In this document: positions 27,237 through 38,071 of the stretch, piece after piece
How the letters are laid out: each line of letters starts with the position of its first letter
How positions within the stretch are numbered: the first letter of the stretch is position 1
Source of the DNA: Geodermatophilus aquaeductus
GTDB lineage: Bacteria > Actinomycetota > Actinomycetes > Mycobacteriales > Geodermatophilaceae
NCBI RefSeq assembly: GCF_900182545.1
Contig: NZ_FXTJ01000002.1
Coordinates: 124,001 to 188,000, forward strand
Length of the DNA stretch: 64,000 nucleotides
Reading direction: 5' to 3'
Program-made: the position numbers and the translations under genes
Notes under the pieces: generated by a model
The model's input: only the letters and a program-made list of their open reading frames with translations
What the model was told of the DNA's origin: nothing
Databases searched by the model: none

Positions 27237-27309
27237 TGGAGCTGAGGGGACTCGAACCCCTGACCCCCACACTGCCAGTGTGGTGCGCTACCAGCTGCGC
27301 CACAGCCCC
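27237..27309 (-). tRNA. tRNA-Ala (anticodon GGC)
   Basis: The minus strand gives a complete 73-base cloverleaf. The acceptor stem GGGGCTG pairs with CAGCTCC (one G-T), with discriminator A. The D-arm is GCGCAGCTGGTAGCGC. The anticodon stem CCACA/TGTGG holds loop CTGGCAG with anticodon GGC. The T-arm is GGGGTTCGAATCCCC with the invariant TTCGAAT. No CCA is encoded. It reads codon GCC, a preferred codon in this GC-rich genome. Confidence 0.97.
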
Positions 27310-27403: not shown

Positions 27404-28429
27404 TCAGATCCCGACGCCGCGCTCGGCCAGCCACGGCACCGGGTCGATCTTCCGCCCGTTCATGCCGCCCCGGTGGACCTCGAAGTGCAGGTGCGGCCCG
27501 GTGGACTGGCCGCGGTTGCCGAGGAGCGCGATCGTCTCGCCGGCCTCCACGAACTGGCCCGGCTCGACGAGGATCTCGTTCATGTGGCCGTAGACGGTGA
27601 CGTCGCCGTTGTCGTGCAGGACGTAGACCGCCAGGCCGAAGCCGCTCGCCGCACCCGCCCGGACGACGACGCCGTCCATGGCCGCGTACTCCGGCGTCCC
27701 GATCGGGGCCGCGAGGTCGATGCCGTAGTGGAAGGTGCCCCAGCGGGAGCCGTAGCCGCTGGTGAAGCGGGCGCCGCTGACCGGCAGCACCGCCTTGGGC
27801 CGGGCCGCCTCGGCCGCGGCCTCCGCGGCGGCGGCCTCGGCGGCGGCGCGCTGGGCGCGGCTGGCGGCCACCTCCTGCAGACGGGCCTGCGCCTCGGCCT
27901 CGGTGATCGAGGCCATCGGCAGGACCTCCTCGGACACGTCGTCGGTGGCCAGCTCCATCTGCGCACCGAGGACCGAGGCCGGCTCGGCCGCCGCCTGCGT
28001 CGAGCCCGGGACGCCGAGGACGCCCGCGCCGATCGCACCGGCCACCAGCGCCGCGAGCAGCAGGTGCGGACGGCGGTCGCGGAGGCCGCGGCGGCGGGCG
28101 GGCCCGGCCGTCTGCGCCTCCACCGCGGGCGCCTCGACCGCGGACGCCGCAACCACGGGCGCCTGGACCACGGGAGCCTCGACCACGGGAGCCTCGACGA
28201 CGGGCGCCGGCGCGAGCTCCGGCAGGACCGTGGTGGCCAGGGAGGCGACGACGTCGTCGGCGGCCGCGCGCGGCACGGGCAGGACCGGCGGGAAGCCCCG
28301 CAGCGACGACACGGGCCGGCCGGCGGGACGCCGGTGCGCGCCGGTCCGAGGGGCCGGCACGGCCCCGCCGGCGTCGCTGGCGGGGCGGGGCAGGAGACCC
28401 GCGGTCGTCCGGGAACTGGCCAAGATCAC
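27404..28429 (-). CDS. M23-family metallopeptidase (cell-wall endopeptidase)
   Basis: 341 aa from GTG 28429. The N-terminal cytoplasmic region has a degenerate repeat (VVEAPVVEAPVVQAPVV, about residues 78-95), then a single membrane helix (LLLAALVAGAIGAGVLGV), an Ala/Glu-rich coiled coil (about 160-205) and a lysostaphin-type M23 domain. Zinc ligands are visible: HYGID (His234, Asp238) and HLHF (His315 with His313). Expected to cut peptidoglycan cross-bridges outside the membrane, or to activate amidases if inactive. The upstream frame is open to 28537, so the start is uncertain. Confidence 0.85.
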   Translation of the reverse strand: MILASSRTTAGLLPRPASDAGGAVPAPRTGAHRRPAGRPVSSLRGFPPVLPVPRAAADDVVASLATTVLPELAPAPVVEAPVVEAPVVQAPVVAASAVEAPAVEAQTAGPARRRGLRDRRPHLLLAALVAGAIGAGVLGVPGSTQAAAEPASVLGAQMELATDDVSEEVLPMASITEAEAQARLQEVAASRAQRAAAEAAAAEAAAEAARPKAVLPVSGARFTSGYGSRWGTFHYGIDLAAPIGTPEYAAMDGVVVRAGAASGFGLAVYVLHDNGDVTVYGHMNEILVEPGQFVEAGETIALLGNRGQSTGPHLHFEVHRGGMNGRKIDPVPWLAERGVGI

Positions 28430-28867
28430 GTACCCCGCTCGTGGGAAGCGGCCCGGGCGGGCCCGATCAGGTTGTATCGATCCAAACACACCGTGACCTA
28501 GTCGTGACCGACCGTCCCGCGTGTCCGACGGCGACACGCCGTGTGCGCTGTGTCACGTGGGACTGGTGGGTTTACGAACCCCGTCGCGCGGACAGATCCC
28601 GTCATCCGGCGTGGAAGAGCTCGCGCCGTCCCGATCGCACCCCGGGACCGGCGCTCCCCCGTCGCCCCGGTGCCCGCGTGCCCCGCACGCCGGCAGCCGA
28701 CCACGCAGTGCCCGGGACCACGCCGATCCCTCGGGCAGCCCTCTGGGCTCCCCGCAGGACCGGCGTGATCCCATGATCGTTCGCCCGCGCGACCCGCGGC
28801 GCCCGCCTCGGCGGTGCGACCGGCCGCGCGGCGGCACCGACCCTCGACAGGAAGGACCGATGCCTCG
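28430..28867. other. 438-bp divergent intergenic region
   Basis: The region lies between the divergent M23 peptidase and mannitol dehydrogenase genes. It contains a GGTCAC repeat on the minus strand upstream of the peptidase (near 28490-28510) and a ribosome site AGGAAGG near 28850 for the dehydrogenase operon. I looked for a c-di-AMP riboswitch, frequent ahead of cell-wall peptidases in actinobacteria, and found no convincing match. No further gene is seen. Confidence 0.5.
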
Positions 28868-30415
28868 ATGGCACAGCCCGAGCGCTCCCCGTGGGACCTC
28901 CCGCGGGCCGGCACCGCGCCGACGGCCGATCCCGTCGCCCACGTCCGGCCGCTGACCAGCGCGACGCTCGAGCAGCACGGCGCCCGGCTCACCGTCCCCA
29001 CCTACGACCGCGCGGCCCTGACGCCCGCCGTCGTCCACCTCAGCGTCGGCGGCTTCTCCCGCGCCCACCAGCTCATCTACTTCGACGAGGTCGCCCAGCG
29101 GCGGATCTCCACCGAGTGGGGCGTCGTCGGCGTCGGCCTGCGGCACCGGACGCTGCAGGAGGCCCTCGCCCCGCAGGACAACCTCTACACGGTCGTCGAG
29201 CGCAGCCCCGACGGCGAGCGGGCCAGGGTCGTCGGCGTCCTCACCGACTACCTGTTCGCACCCGACGCCCCCGGCGCGGTCCTCGACCGGCTCGCCGATC
29301 CGCGCACCCGCGTGGTGACCATGACGATCACCGACGCCGGCTACCTGCTCGACCCCACCACCCGGACCTTCACCCCCGACGACGACGTCCGGCACGACCT
29401 GGCCTCCCCCGCCGCCCCGCGCACCGTCTTCGGGTTCCTCGTCGAGGCGCTCGACCGCCGCCGGCGGGCCGGGACGGCGCCGTTCACCGTCGTCTCCTGC
29501 GACAACCTGCACCGCAACGGCGACGCCACCCGCGCCGCCGTCGTCGGGTTCGCGGCGCTGCGCGACGAGGTCCTCGCCCGCTGGATCACCGACCGGGTCG
29601 CCTTCCCCAGCAGCATGGTCGACCGGATCACCCCGCAGACGACGCCCGAGGAGCGCGCTGCGGTCGCCCAGCGGCACCGCGTCGACGACCGCTGGCCGGT
29701 GATCACCGAGCCGTTCTCCCAGTGGGTCGTCGAGGACACCTTCTGCAACGGCCGCCCGCCGCTGGACGAGGTCGGCGTCCGCTTCGTCCGGAACGTCACC
29801 GACCACGAGCTGATGAAGACCCGGCTGCTCAACGCCAGCCACTCCGCACTCGGCTACCTCGGCACGCTGGCCGGCCACGAGCGCATCGACGTCCTCATGG
29901 GCGACCCGCTGTTCGCCGACTACGTCACCCGGCTGATGGACGACGAGGTCACCCCGCTCATCCCCGTCCCCGAGGGCATCGACCTCGACGCGTACAAGGC
30001 CACGCTGCTGCAGCGCTTCGCCAACCCGGCCATCGCCGACCGGCTCTCCCGGCTGTGCCGGCGCGGGTCGACCAAGCTGCCGCACCACCTGCTGCCCTCG
30101 CTGCGCCAGGCCCTGGCCGAGGGGCGCCCGCACGCGCTGCTCACCCTCGCGCTGGCCGGTTGGATCGCCTACCTGCAGCGGGTCGACGACGACGGCCGGC
30201 CGGTGCCGGTGGAGGACGACCGCGGCCCCCACCTGCAGGCCCTGGCCCTCGCCGGCGGCACCGACCCGCGGCCGCTGCTGGCCGAGGAGCCGGTGTTCGG
30301 CGACCTCGGCGCGGTGCCCGGCTTCGCCGACGAGCTCGCCGGCGTGCTGCGCCGCCTGCAGCGCGACGGCGTCCGGGCGACCGTCGCCGCCGCCGTCCTG
30401 GCCGGCGCCCGGTGA
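28868..30415 (+). CDS. Mannitol dehydrogenase-family oxidoreductase
   Basis: 515 aa from ATG 28868, typical for the long-chain polyol dehydrogenase family. The N-terminal Rossmann domain starts at VVHLSVGGFSRAHQLIYFDE. The catalytic motif K-x4-N-x2-H is present (Lys317, Asn322, His325 in MKTRLLNASHSALGYLG). It interconverts a ketose (fructose or fructose-6-phosphate) and a hexitol with NAD(P)H. It is the first gene of a four-gene operon with 4-14 bp overlaps; downstream HAD phosphatase, TagF-like and nucleotidyltransferase genes suggest it makes mannitol or mannitol phosphate for a surface polymer. Confidence 0.88.
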   Translation: MAQPERSPWDLPRAGTAPTADPVAHVRPLTSATLEQHGARLTVPTYDRAALTPAVVHLSVGGFSRAHQLIYFDEVAQRRISTEWGVVGVGLRHRTLQEALAPQDNLYTVVERSPDGERARVVGVLTDYLFAPDAPGAVLDRLADPRTRVVTMTITDAGYLLDPTTRTFTPDDDVRHDLASPAAPRTVFGFLVEALDRRRRAGTAPFTVVSCDNLHRNGDATRAAVVGFAALRDEVLARWITDRVAFPSSMVDRITPQTTPEERAAVAQRHRVDDRWPVITEPFSQWVVEDTFCNGRPPLDEVGVRFVRNVTDHELMKTRLLNASHSALGYLGTLAGHERIDVLMGDPLFADYVTRLMDDEVTPLIPVPEGIDLDAYKATLLQRFANPAIADRLSRLCRRGSTKLPHHLLPSLRQALAEGRPHALLTLALAGWIAYLQRVDDDGRPVPVEDDRGPHLQALALAGGTDPRPLLAEEPVFGDLGAVPGFADELAGVLRRLQRDGVRATVAAAVLAGAR

Positions 30416-31179
30416 CCGCCGGCACCACCGCGACGCTGCCCCGGGACGTCGTCAGCGGTCTCACGCACCTGCTCTGCGACGCCGACGGCAACCTCTTCCC
30501 CTCCGAGGAGCCGGCCTTCGTCGCCTCGGCCGAGGTGACCAACCGCTTCCTCGCCGAGCTCGGCGACGCGCGCCAGTTCACCCCGGAGGAGCTGCGCCTG
30601 GCCACCACCGGCATGAACTTCCGGACGACGTCGCGGCGGCTGGCCGCCGAGGCCGGCCGTCCCGAGGTCGACGTCGAGCCGTGGGTGGCCGAGGAGAAGC
30701 GCGCGGTCACCGCGTACCTCGGCGAGCACCTGCGCCCGCACGGGCCGACCACCGAGGCCCTGACCGCGCTGTCCGGGCAGCTGCGGCTGGCCGCGGTCAG
30801 CTCCAGCGCGCTGGCGCGGCTGGCGGCCTGCTTCACCGCCACCGGCCTCGACGGTCTGATCCCGCCGGACCAGCGGTTCAGCGCCGAGGACTCCCTGCCG
30901 GTGCCCACCAGCAAGCCCGACCCGGCGGTCTACCTGTTCGCCTGCGACCGGCTGGGGATCGCCCCGGAGGCGGGCCTGGCGGTGGAGGACTCCGTCCCGG
31001 GCGCCCTGTCGGCGGTCCGCGCGGGGTGCCCCACCGTGGGCAACCTCCTGTTCGTCCAGCCGGCCGAGCAGGAGGAGCGGGAGGCCGCGCTGCGGGAGGC
31101 CGGCGTGCTCACCGTCGTCTCGTCCTGGCAGGAGCTCGCCGGCCTGCTCCTGCCCGTCCTGACCGGAGGTGGTCGATGA
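30412..31179 (+). CDS. HAD-superfamily phosphatase
   Basis: 255 aa from GTG 30412, overlapping the dehydrogenase gene by 4 bases. Motif I CDADGNLF (Asp23 nucleophile, Asp25) is followed by a helical cap, motif II AAVSSSALARL, the lysine motif PVPTSKPDPAVYLFA and motif IV AVEDSVPGALSAVRAG. This is the pattern of beta-phosphoglucomutase/sugar-phosphate phosphatase-type HADs. Next to a mannitol dehydrogenase it could remove phosphate from mannitol-1-phosphate, as the HAD domain of Acinetobacter MtlD does; that specific role is inferred from context. Confidence 0.85.
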   Translation: MTAGTTATLPRDVVSGLTHLLCDADGNLFPSEEPAFVASAEVTNRFLAELGDARQFTPEELRLATTGMNFRTTSRRLAAEAGRPEVDVEPWVAEEKRAVTAYLGEHLRPHGPTTEALTALSGQLRLAAVSSSALARLAACFTATGLDGLIPPDQRFSAEDSLPVPTSKPDPAVYLFACDRLGIAPEAGLAVEDSVPGALSAVRAGCPTVGNLLFVQPAEQEEREAALREAGVLTVVSSWQELAGLLLPVLTGGGR

Positions 31180-32303
31180 GGATCGTCTACACCAGCTTCC
31201 GCGGCCTGTTCTCCGACAGTCCGCGGGCCGTCTACGAGGCGCTCGCCGCCCGCGGCGACGACGTCACGCACACGTGGCTGACCGCCCCGGTGGCCGAGGG
31301 CGCCTTTCCCGCCGACGTGGAGACGATCCCGTTCGGCAGCCCGGAGAGCATCGCCGCGCTCGAGGCCGCCGACGTCGTCGTCTCCAACGACCACGTGCCG
31401 CTGGACTGGGAGAAGCGGCCCGGCACGTTCTACCTGCAGACCTGGCACGGCACCCCGCTCAAGCGGATCCACAACGACGTCCTGTGGGCGCCCGAGGGCC
31501 GGCTGGCCTACCTCGAGCACGACATCGCCCGGTGGGACGCGATGCTCTCGCCGAATCCGTACAGCACCGCCCGGTTCCGCCAGGCGTTCGGCTACCGCGG
31601 GCCGGTCCACGAGACCGGCTACCCCCGCAACGACCTGCTCTCCAGCCCGGAGCGCGACGCGGTGCGCGCGCGGGTCCGGGCGGGACTCGGGATCGACGAG
31701 GGCACCCAGGTGGTCCTGTACACGCCCACCTGGCGCGACCAGCTGGTCTTCGAGGGCACCGGCGAGCGGGACTTCGACTTCCCCGTGGACCTCGCCGACT
31801 TCACCGACCGGCTGGGGAAGGACCACGTGCTGCTGCTGCGGCTGCACAACATGGTCTCCGACCGGCTGGAGTCGATCGAGGGTCTGCCGGTGCGCGACGT
31901 CTCCTCGTACCCGGACATCCGCGACCTCTACCTGGCCGCCGACCTGCTGGTCACCGACTACTCGTCGACGATGTTCGACTTCGCGATCACCGGGAAGCCG
32001 ATCCTGCTGTTCACCTACGACCTCGACGAGTACCGCGACCGGCTGCGCGGCTTCTACGTGCCGATCGAGGACCTCGCGCCCGGCCCGCTGCTGTCGACCA
32101 GCCGCGAGCTCGTCGACGCGGTGGCCGACCTCGACGCCGTCGCCGCCGCCCACGCCGACCGGTACCGGTCGTTCCGGGAGACCTACACCTCCCTGGAGGA
32201 CGGGCACGCCACCGACCGCGTCCTCGACCTGTTCTTCCCGCCCGGCGGCCCCGCCGGCGCGGACCCGACGACCCGAGAGGGGGACGACAGTGCGCTTCGT
32301 TGA
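31176..32303 (+). CDS. CDP-glycerol glycerophosphotransferase (TagB/TagF)-family protein
   Basis: 375 aa from ATG 31176, in an ATGA overlap with the HAD gene. Signatures of the Glyphos_transf family: YLQTWHGTPLKRIHND (catalytic His in WHGTPLK), NPYSTARFRQAFGY, YPRNDLL, VLYTPTWRD, LLLRLHNM and DLLVTDYSSTMFDFAITGKPILLFTYDLDEY. Such enzymes transfer polyol-phosphate units from CDP-activated polyol to a growing teichoic acid-like chain on the inner membrane face. No long membrane helix; membrane association is probably peripheral. Confidence 0.9.
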   Translation: MRIVYTSFRGLFSDSPRAVYEALAARGDDVTHTWLTAPVAEGAFPADVETIPFGSPESIAALEAADVVVSNDHVPLDWEKRPGTFYLQTWHGTPLKRIHNDVLWAPEGRLAYLEHDIARWDAMLSPNPYSTARFRQAFGYRGPVHETGYPRNDLLSSPERDAVRARVRAGLGIDEGTQVVLYTPTWRDQLVFEGTGERDFDFPVDLADFTDRLGKDHVLLLRLHNMVSDRLESIEGLPVRDVSSYPDIRDLYLAADLLVTDYSSTMFDFAITGKPILLFTYDLDEYRDRLRGFYVPIEDLAPGPLLSTSRELVDAVADLDAVAAAHADRYRSFRETYTSLEDGHATDRVLDLFFPPGGPAGADPTTREGDDSALR

Positions 32304-33111
32304 GCTCGCGCAGACCACGGGGGTTCCCGCCCTGGAGGCGCTGACCACCCGGACCGGCACCCGCACCGAGACGCACCCCGTGCAGGTGGTCATCCTGGCC
32401 GCCGGCATGGGGACCCGGCTCGGGCGCCCGCTGCCCAAGCCGCTGACCCCGCTGGTGGACGGCCGCAGCATCCTGCACCGCCAGCTCGACACCCTGGCCC
32501 AGGTGCTCGGCCCCGACGTCGACGTCACCGCCGTCGTCGGGTTCTCGTGCGAGCTGCTCATGCAGGCCGCCCCCGACCTGCGGTTCGCCTACAACCCGCA
32601 CTTCGCGCGGACCAACACGTCCAAGAGCCTGCTGCGCGGCCTGCGGACCACCCGCTCCGGCGGCGTGCTGTGGCTCAACGGCGACGTCGTGTTCGACGCC
32701 GCGGTGCTCGAGGCGGTGCTGCCGGCGCTCGAGGCCGACGAGAGCTTCGTGTGCGTGGACACCTCCGTCGTCGGCGACGAGGAGGTCAAATACACCCTCG
32801 ACGAGGAGGGCTACATCGCCGAGCTCTCCAAGACGGTGACCGGCGGCCTGGGCGAGGCGGTGGGCATCAACTACGTGTCCTCCGCCGACAAGGCGGCGCT
32901 CGTCGAGCACCTCGACGCGTGCGGCGACCAGGACTACTTCGAGCGCGGCATGGAGACGGCGGTCATCGAGGCCGGCCTGCGGTTCCGTCCGCTGGACATC
33001 TCCCGCTGGACCGCCGTGGAAGTCGACTTCGAGGCCGACCTGGAGCGCGCCAACGCGATGCTCTCCAGCAGCCGGTCACGCCTGCACCCGGTGCCCGACA
33101 GCACCCGCTGA
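32290..33111 (+). CDS. Sugar/polyol-phosphate nucleotidyltransferase
   Basis: 273 aa from GTG 32290, with GAGAGGGGGAC upstream and a 14-bp overlap with the preceding gene. After a 30-residue N-terminal extension comes VVILAAGMGTRLGRPLPKPL, the nucleotide-binding loop (Gly39-Gly45) of NTP transferases, then VVGFSCELL, NTSKSLLRGL and LWLNGDVVFD (metal-binding Asp). It is closest to the phosphocholine cytidylyltransferase (LicC)-like group, so CTP is a good guess. It could make the CDP-polyol used by the adjacent TagF-like enzyme. It is the last gene of the operon. Confidence 0.85.
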   Translation: MRFVELAQTTGVPALEALTTRTGTRTETHPVQVVILAAGMGTRLGRPLPKPLTPLVDGRSILHRQLDTLAQVLGPDVDVTAVVGFSCELLMQAAPDLRFAYNPHFARTNTSKSLLRGLRTTRSGGVLWLNGDVVFDAAVLEAVLPALEADESFVCVDTSVVGDEEVKYTLDEEGYIAELSKTVTGGLGEAVGINYVSSADKAALVEHLDACGDQDYFERGMETAVIEAGLRFRPLDISRWTAVEVDFEADLERANAMLSSSRSRLHPVPDSTR

Positions 33112-33127: not shown

Positions 33128-34204
33128 TCAGCCGACCGGCTGGGGCTCCGGCTCGGGCCGGGCCCGCTCGGGGTCGCGGAAGCGCCGCGCGGCGGCCAGA
33201 CCCCCCACGACCAGGCCGGCGCCCCCGGCCACCAGGACGGCGACGGCCGCGCGGGCCAGGAACGCCGGCCCGCCGGTGGCCACGTTCGCGCTCCACAGCA
33301 CGTCGACGTCGGGCAGGCCCTGCACCAGCAGCAGCCAGCCGAGGACGACCGCGGTCAGCCCGGTCACCACACCGCGCCCGCGCCGGGCGGCGACGAGCCC
33401 CAGGGCCGCCACCAGCGCCGCGGTGACGGCCGGCAGCAGCGCGGACACCACCGCCGCCGCGTGCGAGGACACCGTCACCGGCGGCTCGGGCGTGCCCGCC
33501 GCGTGCCACAGTGCGGCGACCGCGCCCAGGGCCATCGCCACGCCCAGCGGCCGCGCCGAGCGGGCCAGCAGCCCGGTGGCCGCGACGGCGACGGCCAGCG
33601 CCAGGTGCACGCCCCAGGTGACCGCCGGCGACGGCGGCGGGCTCCAGGTGAGCTCGCCGCGGACGGTCACTGCGGTGTCGCCGTGCCGCATCGGGACGGT
33701 CCAGTCGAACACCGTGTGGCCGGTGGTCGGGTCGGCGGCCACCGCGGGCGGCAACTGCTCCTCGCTCATCCAGTGCGTGCGGTGGTCGTGCCACGTGTAC
33801 TGCGGCTCGGTGGACACCTGCACCCACGCCGGCTCGGCCCGCGGGTCGGCGTCCTCGGGCAGGCTCACGCGGCCGTAGCGGTCGAGGTTGATCGTGGTGG
33901 CCGGGCTGTGCGCGTTGCGCCAGACGCCGTCCGGGCCGATGCGCAGGTAGGGCTCGTCGGAGTAGCCGGGCACCGTCACCTCGGTGCCGGTGGTGTTGAC
34001 CACCTCGAGGGCGTCGCCGAACTGCAGCACCCGCACGGTCACGCCGGGCACGGCCGGCTGGACCGAGGTCACCCGGCCGTCGAAGTCGCTGCCGGCGGCG
34101 TCGCCGCCGACGTGCGCCCGTGCCGGGCCGGCGAGGGCCAGGGTGGCCAGCACGCCGAGCAGCACGACCAGCAGCCGCGCCCCGGCGGCCCCGACGCGGG
34201 TCAC
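33128..34204 (-). CDS. Membrane protein at the end of the copper operon
   Basis: 358 aa from GTG 34204. Signal peptide (to about residue 30, ending ARAH), an extracytoplasmic domain of about 170 residues with VTVPGYSDEPYLRIGPDGVW and a His-rich loop YTWHDHRTHWM, then five or six membrane helices and an Arg/Pro-rich cytoplasmic tail. The His-rich loop and the mature N-terminal His could bind copper. It overlaps the SCO1 gene by 4 bases (GTGA) and ends 17 bases from the convergent nucleotidyltransferase gene. No precise family name is recognised, but it belongs with the copper genes by linkage. Confidence 0.78.
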   Translation of the reverse strand: MTRVGAAGARLLVVLLGVLATLALAGPARAHVGGDAAGSDFDGRVTSVQPAVPGVTVRVLQFGDALEVVNTTGTEVTVPGYSDEPYLRIGPDGVWRNAHSPATTINLDRYGRVSLPEDADPRAEPAWVQVSTEPQYTWHDHRTHWMSEEQLPPAVAADPTTGHTVFDWTVPMRHGDTAVTVRGELTWSPPPSPAVTWGVHLALAVAVAATGLLARSARPLGVAMALGAVAALWHAAGTPEPPVTVSSHAAAVVSALLPAVTAALVAALGLVAARRGRGVVTGLTAVVLGWLLLVQGLPDVDVLWSANVATGGPAFLARAAVAVLVAGGAGLVVGGLAAARRFRDPERARPEPEPQPVG

Positions 34205-34869
34205 CGGGAGGCGGCGACCGCGGCCAGGTCGCCGGCGATGTCCCGGGCGGTGTTGCCGGCGTCGAAGGCCACGTGCGCCTCGTCGTCGGTCCCGTAGAGC
34301 AGCAGCAGCGTGCTGTGCAGCCGGCCCTCGTCCTCCGCCAGCGGCACACCGGCCGAGAGCTGCGCCTGGTCGATGGCGTCCTGCTCGCCGGTCAGGCCGA
34401 CGAACTGGGTGGGCAGGTCGGCGTCGAAGCGGTCGAGGTACTCGCCGAGCACCGCGGGCGTGTCGGTGGCGGGGTCGGTGGTGACGAAGACCACCTGCAC
34501 CTGCTCGGCCAGCGCGGGGTCGGTGTCGCGCAGCGCCAGCGCGACGTCGGCCATCGTCGTCGGGCAGACGTCGGGGCAGTTCGTGTACCCGAAGAACAGC
34601 AGCGTCGGCCGCCCCGCCGTGGCCGCGGCGAAGTCGTAGGCCGCGCCGGAGGAGTCGGTCAGGGTGAAGGTCGGCCGCTGGAACGGATCGCGCAGGTCGA
34701 TGCCGGCGTACTCGTCGCCGGGGCCCTCCAGCGAGGCGGGCGCGCCGCCGGAGTGGTCGTGCCCCTCGGCGGCCGCCGCCTCGTCCCCGCCGTCGGAGCC
34801 GCAGGCGGACAGCGCCAGGCCGGCGGCGAGGAGCAGCGCGGCGGTCCGGCCGCGCGCGGGAGCGGTCAC
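34201..34869 (-). CDS. SCO1/SenC-family copper chaperone lipoprotein
   Basis: 222 aa from GTG 34869. Signal peptide with lipobox LSAC (Cys23), then a His-containing linker (EGHDHSGG). The thioredoxin-like domain has the copper-binding CPDVC motif (NCPDVCPTTM) and the distal His in GRLHSTLLLLYG. SCO1 proteins deliver copper to the CuA centre of cytochrome c oxidase on the outer face of the membrane. It overlaps neighbours on both sides by 4 bases within the copper operon. Confidence 0.93.
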   Translation of the reverse strand: MTAPARGRTAALLLAAGLALSACGSDGGDEAAAAEGHDHSGGAPASLEGPGDEYAGIDLRDPFQRPTFTLTDSSGAAYDFAAATAGRPTLLFFGYTNCPDVCPTTMADVALALRDTDPALAEQVQVVFVTTDPATDTPAVLGEYLDRFDADLPTQFVGLTGEQDAIDQAQLSAGVPLAEDEGRLHSTLLLLYGTDDEAHVAFDAGNTARDIAGDLAAVAASR

Positions 34870-35588
34870 GAGGACACGGTACGTCGGCCGGCCCGGTAGC
34901 CGAGGACGACGCCCGCGACGCCGACGGCCAGCGCCAGGATGGCGAGGAACAGCGCCAGGCCGGCCGGCTCGTTGCTGACCGGGCCGCCGTGGCCGTGCTC
35001 GTCGGTGGCCGCGGCGGTGTCGGTGGCGGTGGTGTCCGACGTCAGGGTGAGGGTGGGCGCCGGGTTCTCCGGCTCCTGGCCCTCGACGGTCGGCTCGATC
35101 CAGGCGGACTCGGTGCCGTCGCTGTAGGTCTGCACCGCGGGGAACGACAGCGTGTCGGCGTCGGGGAACGGCCCGCCGGACAGGGCGAACTCCTGGAACC
35201 GGCCCGGGGCGATCCCGCCGCCGGCGTCGGCGCGGAACTCCACCACGGAGACGTAGCTGGCGATCTCCTGCCCGTGGGCGTCGAGGGGCTCCTCGAGCCG
35301 GGCGGACGTGGTGGTGATCGTCCAGCCCGGCACCTCCTGCGCCTGCAGGGAGGCCATCGCCTCGTCCTCCGGGATCGAGATGCGCAGCGAGACGGTGCTC
35401 GCGGTGTCGCTCTCGTTGGGCACCCGGAAGGTCAGCTTCCCGTAGCCGCCGGGGGCGGCGTCGGCCGACGAGACCGTCACGTGCGCCGACGCGCCGGTGG
35501 CGGCCACGACGGACGCGACCAGGGCGGTCAGGACGGCGGCCAGGACGACACCGGCACGGGCCAGCGGTCGCAGGGGGGTCGGGGACAC
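34866..35588 (-). CDS. YcnI-domain (DUF1775) copper-binding protein
   Basis: 240 aa from GTG 35588, chosen because GAGGAGA lies 5 bases upstream. Signal peptide ending GASAH; the exposed N-terminal His (HVTVSSADAAPGGYGKLTF) is the copper ligand in YcnI. The DUF1775 domain continues to about residue 170, with SFPAVQTYSDGTESAWIEP near its end. A Thr/Ala/His-rich linker and a C-terminal membrane helix follow. Found between CopCD and SCO1, the common actinobacterial copper-trafficking order. Confidence 0.92.
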   Translation of the reverse strand: MSPTPLRPLARAGVVLAAVLTALVASVVAATGASAHVTVSSADAAPGGYGKLTFRVPNESDTASTVSLRISIPEDEAMASLQAQEVPGWTITTTSARLEEPLDAHGQEIASYVSVVEFRADAGGGIAPGRFQEFALSGGPFPDADTLSFPAVQTYSDGTESAWIEPTVEGQEPENPAPTLTLTSDTTATDTAAATDEHGHGGPVSNEPAGLALFLAILALAVGVAGVVLGYRAGRRTVSS

Positions 35589-35618
35589 GTCTCTCCTCGT
35601 CTGGGGGTGCAACAGGTC

Positions 35619-37424
35619 TCAGCGCACCGGGAAGGCGGTGCTGGCGGTGCTGGCGGTGAACTCGTCGAGCCGGACGGTGACCGCCACGGTCCAGGTGCCG
35701 GCGCCCGGGATCGACATCCCGTCGGCCACCCAGTGGCCGGGGCCGGCGGGCTCCAGGTCGACGTCGAGCGGGCCGATCTCCTGCTCGGGCTCGGTGAGCG
35801 TGACACGCAGGTCGGCCGGCTGGGCGAGCCGCCCGTCGTCGTCGAACAGGTAGACGTGCATCGTGTTGGCGCCGGCCCGGGCCGGGTCGACCGACAGCTG
35901 CACGCTGCCGGACTCCCCCGCCGCCGACTGCAGCGGCAGCGTGACGTCGACCGGCTCGGCGACCGTGGCGGCGGCCGGCGGGGTGCCCACGAGCATCGCC
36001 GAGAGCACCAGCACGACGGCGGCGACGGTGGCCTCGACGAGGATCGTGCGGCGCAGCGGGGCGACGTCCTCCACCGCGCCGCGGGCCTGCACCGCCGCGC
36101 GGGCGCGGGCGGCCGCGACCACCGGGGCCTCGTCGGACCCGCCCACGGCCGGGGCCGCGAAGGCGTGCGCGGTCACCCGGCGGCGCCCGCCGGGTCGCGG
36201 CCGCACGAGGCCCAGGTGCTGCTGCACCCAGACGCGCGAGACCCCGGCGGCGGCCATGAGCAGCAGCACCAGGGCCAGCTTGGCGAGCAGGATCCAGCCG
36301 TAGGTCGTGGAGACGAGGGCGGCCGGCGAGCCGACCTCCCGGACCGACTGGACGACGCCGGTGACCACGAGGGCGGCCACCGAGGCCGAGGCGACCCGCG
36401 ACCACCGGGGCAGCGCCTCGGCCAGCACGCCGGCGTCGACCCCCGGCCGCAGCAGGCCGGCCAGCAGCGCGGCCAGCCCGCCCAGCCACACCACCATGGC
36501 GCCGACGTGCACCGCGGTCACCGCGGTGGCGAACACCGGGACGCTGCCGGCCACGGGGTGCCCGACCGCGGCGGTGGTGAGGACGACGCCGGCGCCGAGG
36601 ACGGCCAGGCCCGCGACCTCCTGGGACTGCGGCGGGGTCCCGCGGCGCCACAGCGGCACCAGGAGCGCGGCGAGGACCAGGGCCAGCGCGCCGCGGCCGA
36701 GGGTGGTGAGCCCGAAGCCCGAGGACCCGGTGGAGGCCAGCAGCGCGGGGTCGAGCAGCGATCCGAGCCCGGCGCCGGCCGCGTAGGGGCCCTGCAGCAG
36801 GAAGGTCAGGATCGCGGCCCCGGCGACCGTGCCGAGCCCGGAGGTGGTCAGCCGGCGCATCCGCCGCGACGCCCAGCCGGCCGGCCAGGCCAGCAGCAGG
36901 AACGCCGGCACGCCCAGGCCGACGGCCTCGGCGGCGAAGCCGATGCTGCGCGCCGCGGGCAGCGCGGTGGCCACGAGGGGGTCGGCGTCGGGGTCGGCGG
37001 CGACCGCGCCGGCGTCGGCGAGCTCGCCGTCGCCGACGACGAACGCGTAGGCGCCGCTGATGGGGTGCGAGTCGGCCGAGATCACCCGGTAGGTGACGAC
37101 GTAGCTCGCGTCGGGCAGGTCGCCGCGCAGCGGGATGGTCAGGGTGTCGTCCGCGACGGCGGCCGCGCCGGTGTCCACCCGTTCGCCGCCGTCGCCGAGG
37201 ACGCGGGCGTAGCCGGCGCCCAGGGACACACCCTCGCTGAAGCGCAGCGTCACCTCGGCGGGCACCGCGTCGAGCCGGGCACCCTCCCCCGGGTCGGTGG
37301 AGACCAGCTCGGCGTGGGCGGCGGCCGGCCCGGCGGTGACCACGCCCAGGCCCAGCCAGCCGGCCAGGAGGACGAGCAGCAGCAGGGCCGGCCGCGGCGG
37401 GCGGCGGGCCGCGACGGCGCTCAC
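35619..37424 (-). CDS. CopC-CopD fusion copper resistance/import protein
   Basis: 601 aa from GTG 37424. Signal peptide ending PAAAH, so the mature protein begins with the copper-binding His of CopC (HAELVSTDPGEGARL). The CopC beta domain runs to about residue 130 (YRVISADSHPISGAYAFVV, with its Asp-x-His pair). About eight membrane helices of CopD follow, with a His-containing VTAVHVGAMVVWLGGL. A final extracytoplasmic domain (about 500-600) resembles YtkA/FixH. It probably imports or traffics copper for cuproenzymes. It overlaps the anti-sigma gene by 4 bases. Confidence 0.92.
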   Translation of the reverse strand: MSAVAARRPPRPALLLLVLLAGWLGLGVVTAGPAAAHAELVSTDPGEGARLDAVPAEVTLRFSEGVSLGAGYARVLGDGGERVDTGAAAVADDTLTIPLRGDLPDASYVVTYRVISADSHPISGAYAFVVGDGELADAGAVAADPDADPLVATALPAARSIGFAAEAVGLGVPAFLLLAWPAGWASRRMRRLTTSGLGTVAGAAILTFLLQGPYAAGAGLGSLLDPALLASTGSSGFGLTTLGRGALALVLAALLVPLWRRGTPPQSQEVAGLAVLGAGVVLTTAAVGHPVAGSVPVFATAVTAVHVGAMVVWLGGLAALLAGLLRPGVDAGVLAEALPRWSRVASASVAALVVTGVVQSVREVGSPAALVSTTYGWILLAKLALVLLLMAAAGVSRVWVQQHLGLVRPRPGGRRRVTAHAFAAPAVGGSDEAPVVAAARARAAVQARGAVEDVAPLRRTILVEATVAAVVLVLSAMLVGTPPAAATVAEPVDVTLPLQSAAGESGSVQLSVDPARAGANTMHVYLFDDDGRLAQPADLRVTLTEPEQEIGPLDVDLEPAGPGHWVADGMSIPGAGTWTVAVTVRLDEFTASTASTAFPVR

Positions 37425-38071
37425 GCGACCACCCGCCGGGCGGGGGCGGAGGCGGGCGCCGCGGCCCGGCGCGGCCGCCGGCGCCAGGCGAGGACGGTGA
37501 TGAGCACCACGCCGGCCACCAGCAGCAGGTGGGCCGCGGCGCGGTCGGCGTGCACGTGGCCGGCGGCCAGGTCGCGCACGGTGGTCACGGTGAGCAGCAC
37601 GGCGAAGGTGGCCAGGAACGGCAGCGCGCCGGCGGCCAGCCGCGGTGCCGCCGCGACGGCGAGGAAGGCGGCGGCGACGGCCAGGTTCCAGGCGCCGGTC
37701 TCGTGCGCCACGTGCACCGGCGCGCTCATCGCCGCGACGCCCGCAGTCAGCGCGGGCCACGCCAGCCCGGCCTGGGCCACGCCGACCGCGAGCAGCGCCA
37801 GGCGCAGCGCGGCGTGCAGCAGCCGGGCGCGCGCCGCCGCGGCGGTGCCCGGCAGCTGCTGCGGCAGCGCGCCGAGGACCGCGGCGGTGAGGTCGGGCAC
37901 CGGCGGCGCCGGGGCGAGCCGGGCGCGCCGGGTCACGCCCTCGACGGCGTCGGCCCACCCGGCGCACGCGGGGCACGCCGCGAGGTGGCGGTCGAGGTCG
38001 GCGGCGGGCATGCCGAGCGGCTCACCGTCGAGTCGCGCGCTGACCGCCTCGCGGAACGGGGCACACTGCAT
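37421..38071 (-). CDS. Zinc-binding anti-sigma factor with membrane domain
   Basis: 216 aa from ATG 38071. The N-terminus carries the ZAS motif: Cys3, His29, Cys33, Cys36 (RHLAACPACAGWADAV), a cytoplasmic sigma-binding domain. From about residue 80 on there are about five membrane helices, one with a His-containing VHVAHETGAW loop and another AAGHVHADRAAAH, which could sense a metal at the membrane. It is divergent from the ECF sigma gene (68 bp apart) and first in the copper operon, so it most likely restrains that sigma factor and is autoregulated through it. Confidence 0.88.
   Translation of the reverse strand: MQCAPFREAVSARLDGEPLGMPAADLDRHLAACPACAGWADAVEGVTRRARLAPAPPVPDLTAAVLGALPQQLPGTAAAARARLLHAALRLALLAVGVAQAGLAWPALTAGVAAMSAPVHVAHETGAWNLAVAAAFLAVAAAPRLAAGALPFLATFAVLLTVTTVRDLAAGHVHADRAAAHLLLVAGVVLITVLAWRRRPRRAAAPASAPARRVVA

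Follow-up and report, generated by a model that had tools for sequence, protein, structure and literature searches.

A four-gene operon of Geodermatophilus aquaeductus, an actinobacterium of desert-soil type, was found at a locus where genes are exchanged as a small cassette, in a manner that looks like capsule-type switching. The operon lies on the + strand of the window, the 64,000-nucleotide stretch analyzed here (contig NZ_FXTJ01000002.1, positions 124,001 to 188,000), and encodes, in order, a mannitol dehydrogenase family protein (MDH), a haloacid dehalogenase-fold enzyme (HAD), a TagF-type phosphotransferase (Tag) and a nucleotidyltransferase (NTP). Across related genomes, the Tag allele is coupled to the MDH-HAD pair, NTP is decoupled from it, and MDH-HAD pairs also occur alone. 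New are the small cassette-exchange locus itself and the placing of MDH-HAD on the side of the transferase instead of the activation side of the pathway. We tentatively favor, at somewhat less than an even chance, a reading in which an exchangeable MDH-HAD-Tag cassette accompanies a constant NTP that makes one cytidine diphosphate (CDP)-activated alcohol, CDP-X, with the polyol as the acceptor of Tag.

MDH (28868..30415, 515 amino acids, ATG start, with a GTG in the same frame ahead of it at 28814), HAD (30412..31179, 255 amino acids, GTG start), Tag (31176..32303, 375 amino acids, ATG start) and NTP (32290..33111, 273 amino acids, GTG start) overlap by 4, 4 and 14 bp, respectively, which bears out the four overlapping genes (4-14 bp) described in the initial annotation of this DNA. 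Dozens of genomes show the arrangement in full synteny, so the operon is far beyond chance, and the joining of a reductase, an alcohol-phosphate cytidylyltransferase and a TagF-type phosphotransferase in a single operon is supported.

Exchange of the dehydrogenase, phosphatase and transferase genes

The named relatives in the genome collection belonged to Blastococcus and Modestobacter, both Geodermatophilaceae, and at a greater distance to Kineococcus, Actinophytocola and Cellulomonas. The 69 loci compared fell into two forms, MDH-HAD-Tag-NTP (50 loci, hereafter plus) and Tag-NTP (19 loci, hereafter minus), and throughout them MDH and HAD were either both present or both missing at the locus. 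In a few of the plus loci the flank was too short to include MDH, and its position beside HAD was established by a separate search for MDH matches; in genome G016, MDH lay on another contig than the locus.

When the presence of MDH-HAD was mapped onto maximum-likelihood trees of these loci, it changed twice on the Tag tree versus 10 times on the NTP tree, the starred branches of the latter forcing at least 5 of the 10 changes. An earlier, smaller set of loci gave 2 and 9 changes, respectively. The same pattern recurred within a single genus (g6), in which the minus Tags formed one clade with the plus Tags outside it and the NTPs of the two forms were interleaved. Moreover, among pairs of loci with an NTP identity of 90-96%, Tag identity was 89% for plus loci of the same class (n=41) versus 64.5% for pairs drawn from different classes (n=25). 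Seven alignment columns separated the plus and minus classes in Tag, and none did so in NTP. Two of the separating residues bound a segment 3' of the codon for the catalytic H91 (Tag codons 100-112, N100 to Y112; 31473..31511, + strand): N100, 9 residues after H91, was present in 49 of the 50 MDH-HAD-linked Tags and Y112, 21 residues after it, in all 50, and neither occurred in any of the 19 others.

The exchange and its breakpoints could be followed in an alignment of G012, a minus genome, with G024, a plus genome. The two were 90-97% identical across NTP and the 3'-terminal part of Tag, fell to 65-78% over the remainder of Tag and returned to about 91% on the side of the neighboring M23 peptidase gene, with MDH-HAD included in the exchanged stretch. 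What distinguishes these genomes is an allelic replacement, and NTP lies outside it. In G012 and four other minus genomes (G003, G005, G008 and G011), no MDH-family match was found anywhere in the genome, and their NTPs shared 84-95% identity with the closest NTP of a plus genome; thus, NTP would be fed there by another source. As in the switching of capsule loci, for example in pneumococcus, biosynthesis genes are replaced allelically within a locus whose position and flanks stay the same; the exchange described here differs in being small (one to three genes), in occurring in Geodermatophilaceae and in being known from genes alone.

The MDH-HAD pair was also found standing alone in the same family, without adjacent Tag or NTP (L164-L168, L171 and L180-L182; 53-62% identical to the pair in the window), with a 4-bp overlap between its genes in one of these loci (L168:7790-10014). 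It likewise occurs in other families, and in families f8 and f10 mostly where a true NTP is missing. Because the pair stands alone, often where a true NTP is missing, its product appears to be useful without CDP activation.

The four enzymes

Matches to Pfam families, every one above the gathering score, were obtained for all four proteins: Mannitol_dh and Mannitol_dh_C (PF01232/PF08125) for MDH, HAD (PF00702/PF13419) for HAD, Glyphos_transf (PF04464) for Tag and NTP_transf_3 (PF12804) for NTP. The K317/N322/H325 motif by which MDH had initially been assigned to the mannitol dehydrogenase family is exact and forms part of an active site (N213, D252, K317, N322, H325 and R395) whose N, D, K, N, H, R set was the same in every relative read. 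The closest solved relatives of this long-chain polyol dehydrogenase were the mannitol 2-dehydrogenases 7rk4 (441 bits) and 1lj8 (402 bits), versus about 75 bits for mannitol-1-phosphate 5-dehydrogenase. All NCBIfam models scored below their cut-offs against MDH, with the mannitol 2-dehydrogenases still its best PDB relatives, so that arabinitol, sorbitol and uronates are candidate substrates beside mannitol or fructose. MDH resembles in sequence a free-ketose mannitol 2-dehydrogenase rather than a mannitol-1-phosphate dehydrogenase. In genome G001 (L033:6666-8066), the MDH match was split between residues 15-145 and 178-515 in a single frame, an apparent in-frame deletion of about 30 residues. 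HAD, a class IA phosphatase-type member of its fold, retains the complete catalytic set (D23 and D25 of the DxD motif, S130, K168 and D193), in agreement with its initial assignment as a phosphatase.

Tag matched PF04464 with 303 bits (cut-off 22), which upholds its description as a TagB/F-type transferase, and could be aligned over its full length to the catalytic half of TagF (3l7i), with H91 corresponding to H444 and H224 to H584; both histidines were invariant across 11 relatives. TarF was the nearest curated NCBIfam model (248 bits, below cut-off), followed by TarL (82 bits, also below cut-off) and TarB (40 bits). Tag thus shares with TagF and TarF the domain and both catalytic histidines. 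It differs from them in lacking the N-terminal half of TagF, in being the sole PF04464 gene of the host genome, where TagA was not found and TagD stayed below its cut-off, and in having an allele that is swapped jointly with the MDH-HAD pair.

NTP carries the LAAGMGTRLG motif on which the initial annotation relied, and belongs to PF12804, not to PF01128, the family of IspD, TarI and Mnp1. A direct sequence search of the PDB with NTP returned no match, and a profile search gave weak matches to GlmU, LicC, PntC and IPCT (1jyk, 6pd1 and 2xme among them). An AlphaFold2 model of NTP (mean predicted local distance difference test score, pLDDT, 87) was compared with known structures using Foldseek, and PntC, IPCT and LicC were the best matches, with template-modeling (TM) scores of about 0.7-0.8 over the query and 16-21% identity. 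Since the model is closest to these enzymes, which use cytidine triphosphate (CTP) and small alcohol or amino-alcohol phosphates, NTP is predicted to be a cytidylyltransferase-type enzyme acting on such a phosphate; its low identity to them and its different partner genes set it apart. Phosphocholine is one candidate substrate, given the fold shared with LicC, although choline genes were not apparent in the operon.

Activated alcohol and acceptor

Because Tag, MDH and HAD are swapped jointly beside a constant NTP, the sugar alcohol is probably not what gets activated. Furthermore, with closely similar NTPs in genomes without MDH and no column separating the NTP classes, the two forms of the locus would most simply make the same CDP-alcohol, from a phosphate with a source other than MDH. 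On the preferred reading, NTP would draw on an alcohol phosphate of core metabolism to make CDP-X. For X, glycerol is a guess prompted by TarF being the nearest curated model of Tag, and it stands alongside a TagD score below cut-off in the host genome. HAD and MDH would yield a free polyol, for example with HAD freeing fructose from fructose-6-phosphate and MDH reducing it to mannitol, which is the economical reading given that the pairs stand alone and that MDH is of the mannitol-2-dehydrogenase type. The linked Tag allele would then move X-phosphate from CDP-X onto the polyol to give an X-phospho-polyol or, alternatively, a short X-phosphate chain begun on the polyol, and the Tag allele of loci without MDH-HAD would use the same CDP-X with a different acceptor. 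We infer that the differences between the Tag classes reflect this change of acceptor. All the substrates, the acceptor role of the polyol and the choice between a soluble and an envelope product are parts of the proposal.

The nearest biochemical precedent for MDH-HAD is MtlD of Acinetobacter, in which a dehydrogenase and a phosphatase jointly give free mannitol (PMC6291793); MtlD differs in being one fused protein that reduces fructose-6-phosphate, whereas the window encodes two proteins and a reductase of the mannitol-2-dehydrogenase type. The most novel proposal, in which a TagF-family enzyme would use a free, enzymatically made polyol as acceptor for a CDP-alcohol to give alcohol-phospho-polyols, and strains would swap the choice of acceptor in the form of an MDH-HAD-Tag cassette next to an unchanging CDP-alcohol synthase, is possible but less likely than not.

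Several points weigh against the preferred reading. The acceptors of the TagF family are mostly lipid-linked, and we know of no precedent for a PF04464 enzyme with a free polyol acceptor. Tag adjoins MDH-HAD, so linkage is expected to account for part of their coupling; we argue that the coupling exceeds linkage because it recurs in genus g6 and because of the residue signature. That signature could itself have been copied by recombination within the family, and in genome G119 a Tag beside MDH-HAD in the opposite orientation (L172:3468-6277, where the contig ends; NTP lies on a different one) carries A100 and D112. N100/Y112 as a general marker of MDH-HAD linkage was rejected on this account. 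In addition, a promiscuous NTP would yield identical trees, and the neighboring M23 peptidase suits an envelope role equally well.

Among the alternatives, the best placed, which we nevertheless regard as unlikely, is close to what the initial annotation had proposed: MDH would make a hexitol or its phosphate, HAD would act as a phosphotransferase or proofreader, NTP would form a CDP-hexitol, and Tag would make poly(hexitol phosphate) or place hexitol phosphate on a surface glycan. The overlapping genes and the alcohol-phosphate cytidylyltransferase fold of NTP fit this scheme, as does the pneumococcal Gtp1-3 trio (CDP-2-glycerol), which combines a reductase, a phosphotransferase and a cytidylyltransferase. 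Mannitol phosphate also occurs in Brevibacterium walls (PMC10918830). However, the scheme demands an NTP broad in substrate or a repeated change of substrate, since plus and minus NTPs are interleaved with no class-specific column and several minus genomes lack any MDH; the pathway first proposed is plausible in its outline, but its central step, activation of the MDH polyol by a near-unchanged NTP, is not favored when it is Tag that tracks MDH-HAD.

An MDH of the free-ketose type would, moreover, leave a kinase gap in the CDP-hexitol scheme. The initial annotation had seen that dephosphorylation by HAD would call for a kinase or another route: no such gap arises if the polyol is the acceptor, as HAD and MDH would make it directly in free form. 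Its suggestion that HAD might be a proofreader of the CDP route is disfavored, as HAD-MDH pairs occur where the true NTP is missing. Nor does the CDP-mannitol route of pneumococcal capsules serve as a model. Mnp1/Mnp2 of pneumococcus 35A (CDP-mannitol) and HS5.18/HS5.17 of C. jejuni (CDP-6-glucitol) likewise combine a cytidylyltransferase with an NAD(P)-dependent hexitol reductase, but theirs are PF01128 and PF01370 proteins, and fructose-6-phosphate is activated to CDP-fructose before it is reduced (PMC10918830). The operon has PF12804, a long-chain mannitol dehydrogenase (PF01232/PF08125) and HAD instead, and a pathway of the Mnp1/Mnp2 type was rejected.

Slightly less probable is an envelope polymer, in which Tag would add or polymerize X-phosphate on a lipid-linked glycan, the polyol would be a chain terminator or side group, and the swap would amount to switching of the antigen or phage-receptor type. 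Surface-polymer loci typically show allelic replacement in a fixed position, an M23 peptidase gene is adjacent, and NTP homologs elsewhere adjoin LicD, CDP-alcohol transferases, ABC exporter pairs and other proteins of PF04464. Streptomyces shows that the wall polymers of actinobacteria can become diverse through an arms race with toxins binding to them (PMC13274773). The operon, however, contains no exporter, glycosyltransferase or lipid-carrier gene. In the host genome, TagA/WecG (PF03808) gave no match, control genomes having given matches, the best TagD score was 51 bits against a cut-off of 165, and with a single PF04464 gene there is no separate primase and polymerase. The canonical wall teichoic acid pathway was rejected for lack of TagA, TagD and a second PF04464 gene. 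In our literature search, we found neither a description of the wall chemistry of Geodermatophilaceae nor genes assigned to mannitol teichoic acids.

Least probable is that the free polyol of MDH-HAD serves independently, as a solute or redox sink, the pair sharing transcription but no product with Tag-NTP: stand-alone pairs in the same and other genomes and the Acinetobacter mannitol route (PMC6291793) speak for it, but the Tag class and its residues near the catalytic histidine track MDH-HAD, again inside genus g6, the genes overlap by 4 bp, and MDH and HAD are present or missing jointly at the locus.

Flanks, variant arrangements and significance

Within the genus of the host both flanks are constant: on one side lies an M23 peptidase (27404-28537, - strand), on the other a conserved protein that matches no Pfam family (33128-34204, - strand). 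The latter opens a conserved downstream block (33128-37976) that continues with a DUF1775 protein and a CopC-CopD-like copper protein and is present in both forms of the locus. A tRNA gene lies upstream of the operon region (27237-27309, - strand); an Rfam scan of the window returned nothing beyond it.

A few kb from the main operon of G035, a locus (L186:7112-10873) carries a second Tag (55%), an aldo-keto-reductase-like gene, identified by eye, and a further MDH (46%); this may be a second arrangement that makes an acceptor. In another family, genome G106 (L176:4070-8645) has an MDH-HAD-kinase-like-MDH cluster, the kinase recognized by eye from its P-loop, which is possibly an operon of polyol metabolism. 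NTP alone is widespread in actinobacteria without MDH-HAD, next to other PF04464 proteins, ABC exporter pairs, CDP-alcohol transferases (CDP-OH_P_transf) or LicD; with such varied contexts, no single substrate emerges for X. In freshwater actinobacteria (L067, L070, L084, L125 and others), an NTP homolog adjoins tandem CDP-alcohol transferases, one with a DUF5941 region, possibly an unassigned route to a CDP-alcohol lipid or polymer. In L081, L082, L086, L091, L094 and L098, an NTP homolog lies near a mannose-6-phosphate isomerase-like gene, identified by eye, with Tag upstream in most; this arrangement is conserved in Microbacteriaceae and related metagenome-assembled genomes.

The actinobacterial genes for hexitol- and polyol-phosphate products are largely unassigned, and the content of an operon alone can mislead as to which metabolite is activated. 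The natural exchange of alleles offers a clean test of which enzyme makes which part of the product, as matched strains have NTP in common but not Tag and MDH-HAD. If the preferred reading holds, it would give the TagF family a new class of acceptor and Geodermatophilaceae a small switching locus.

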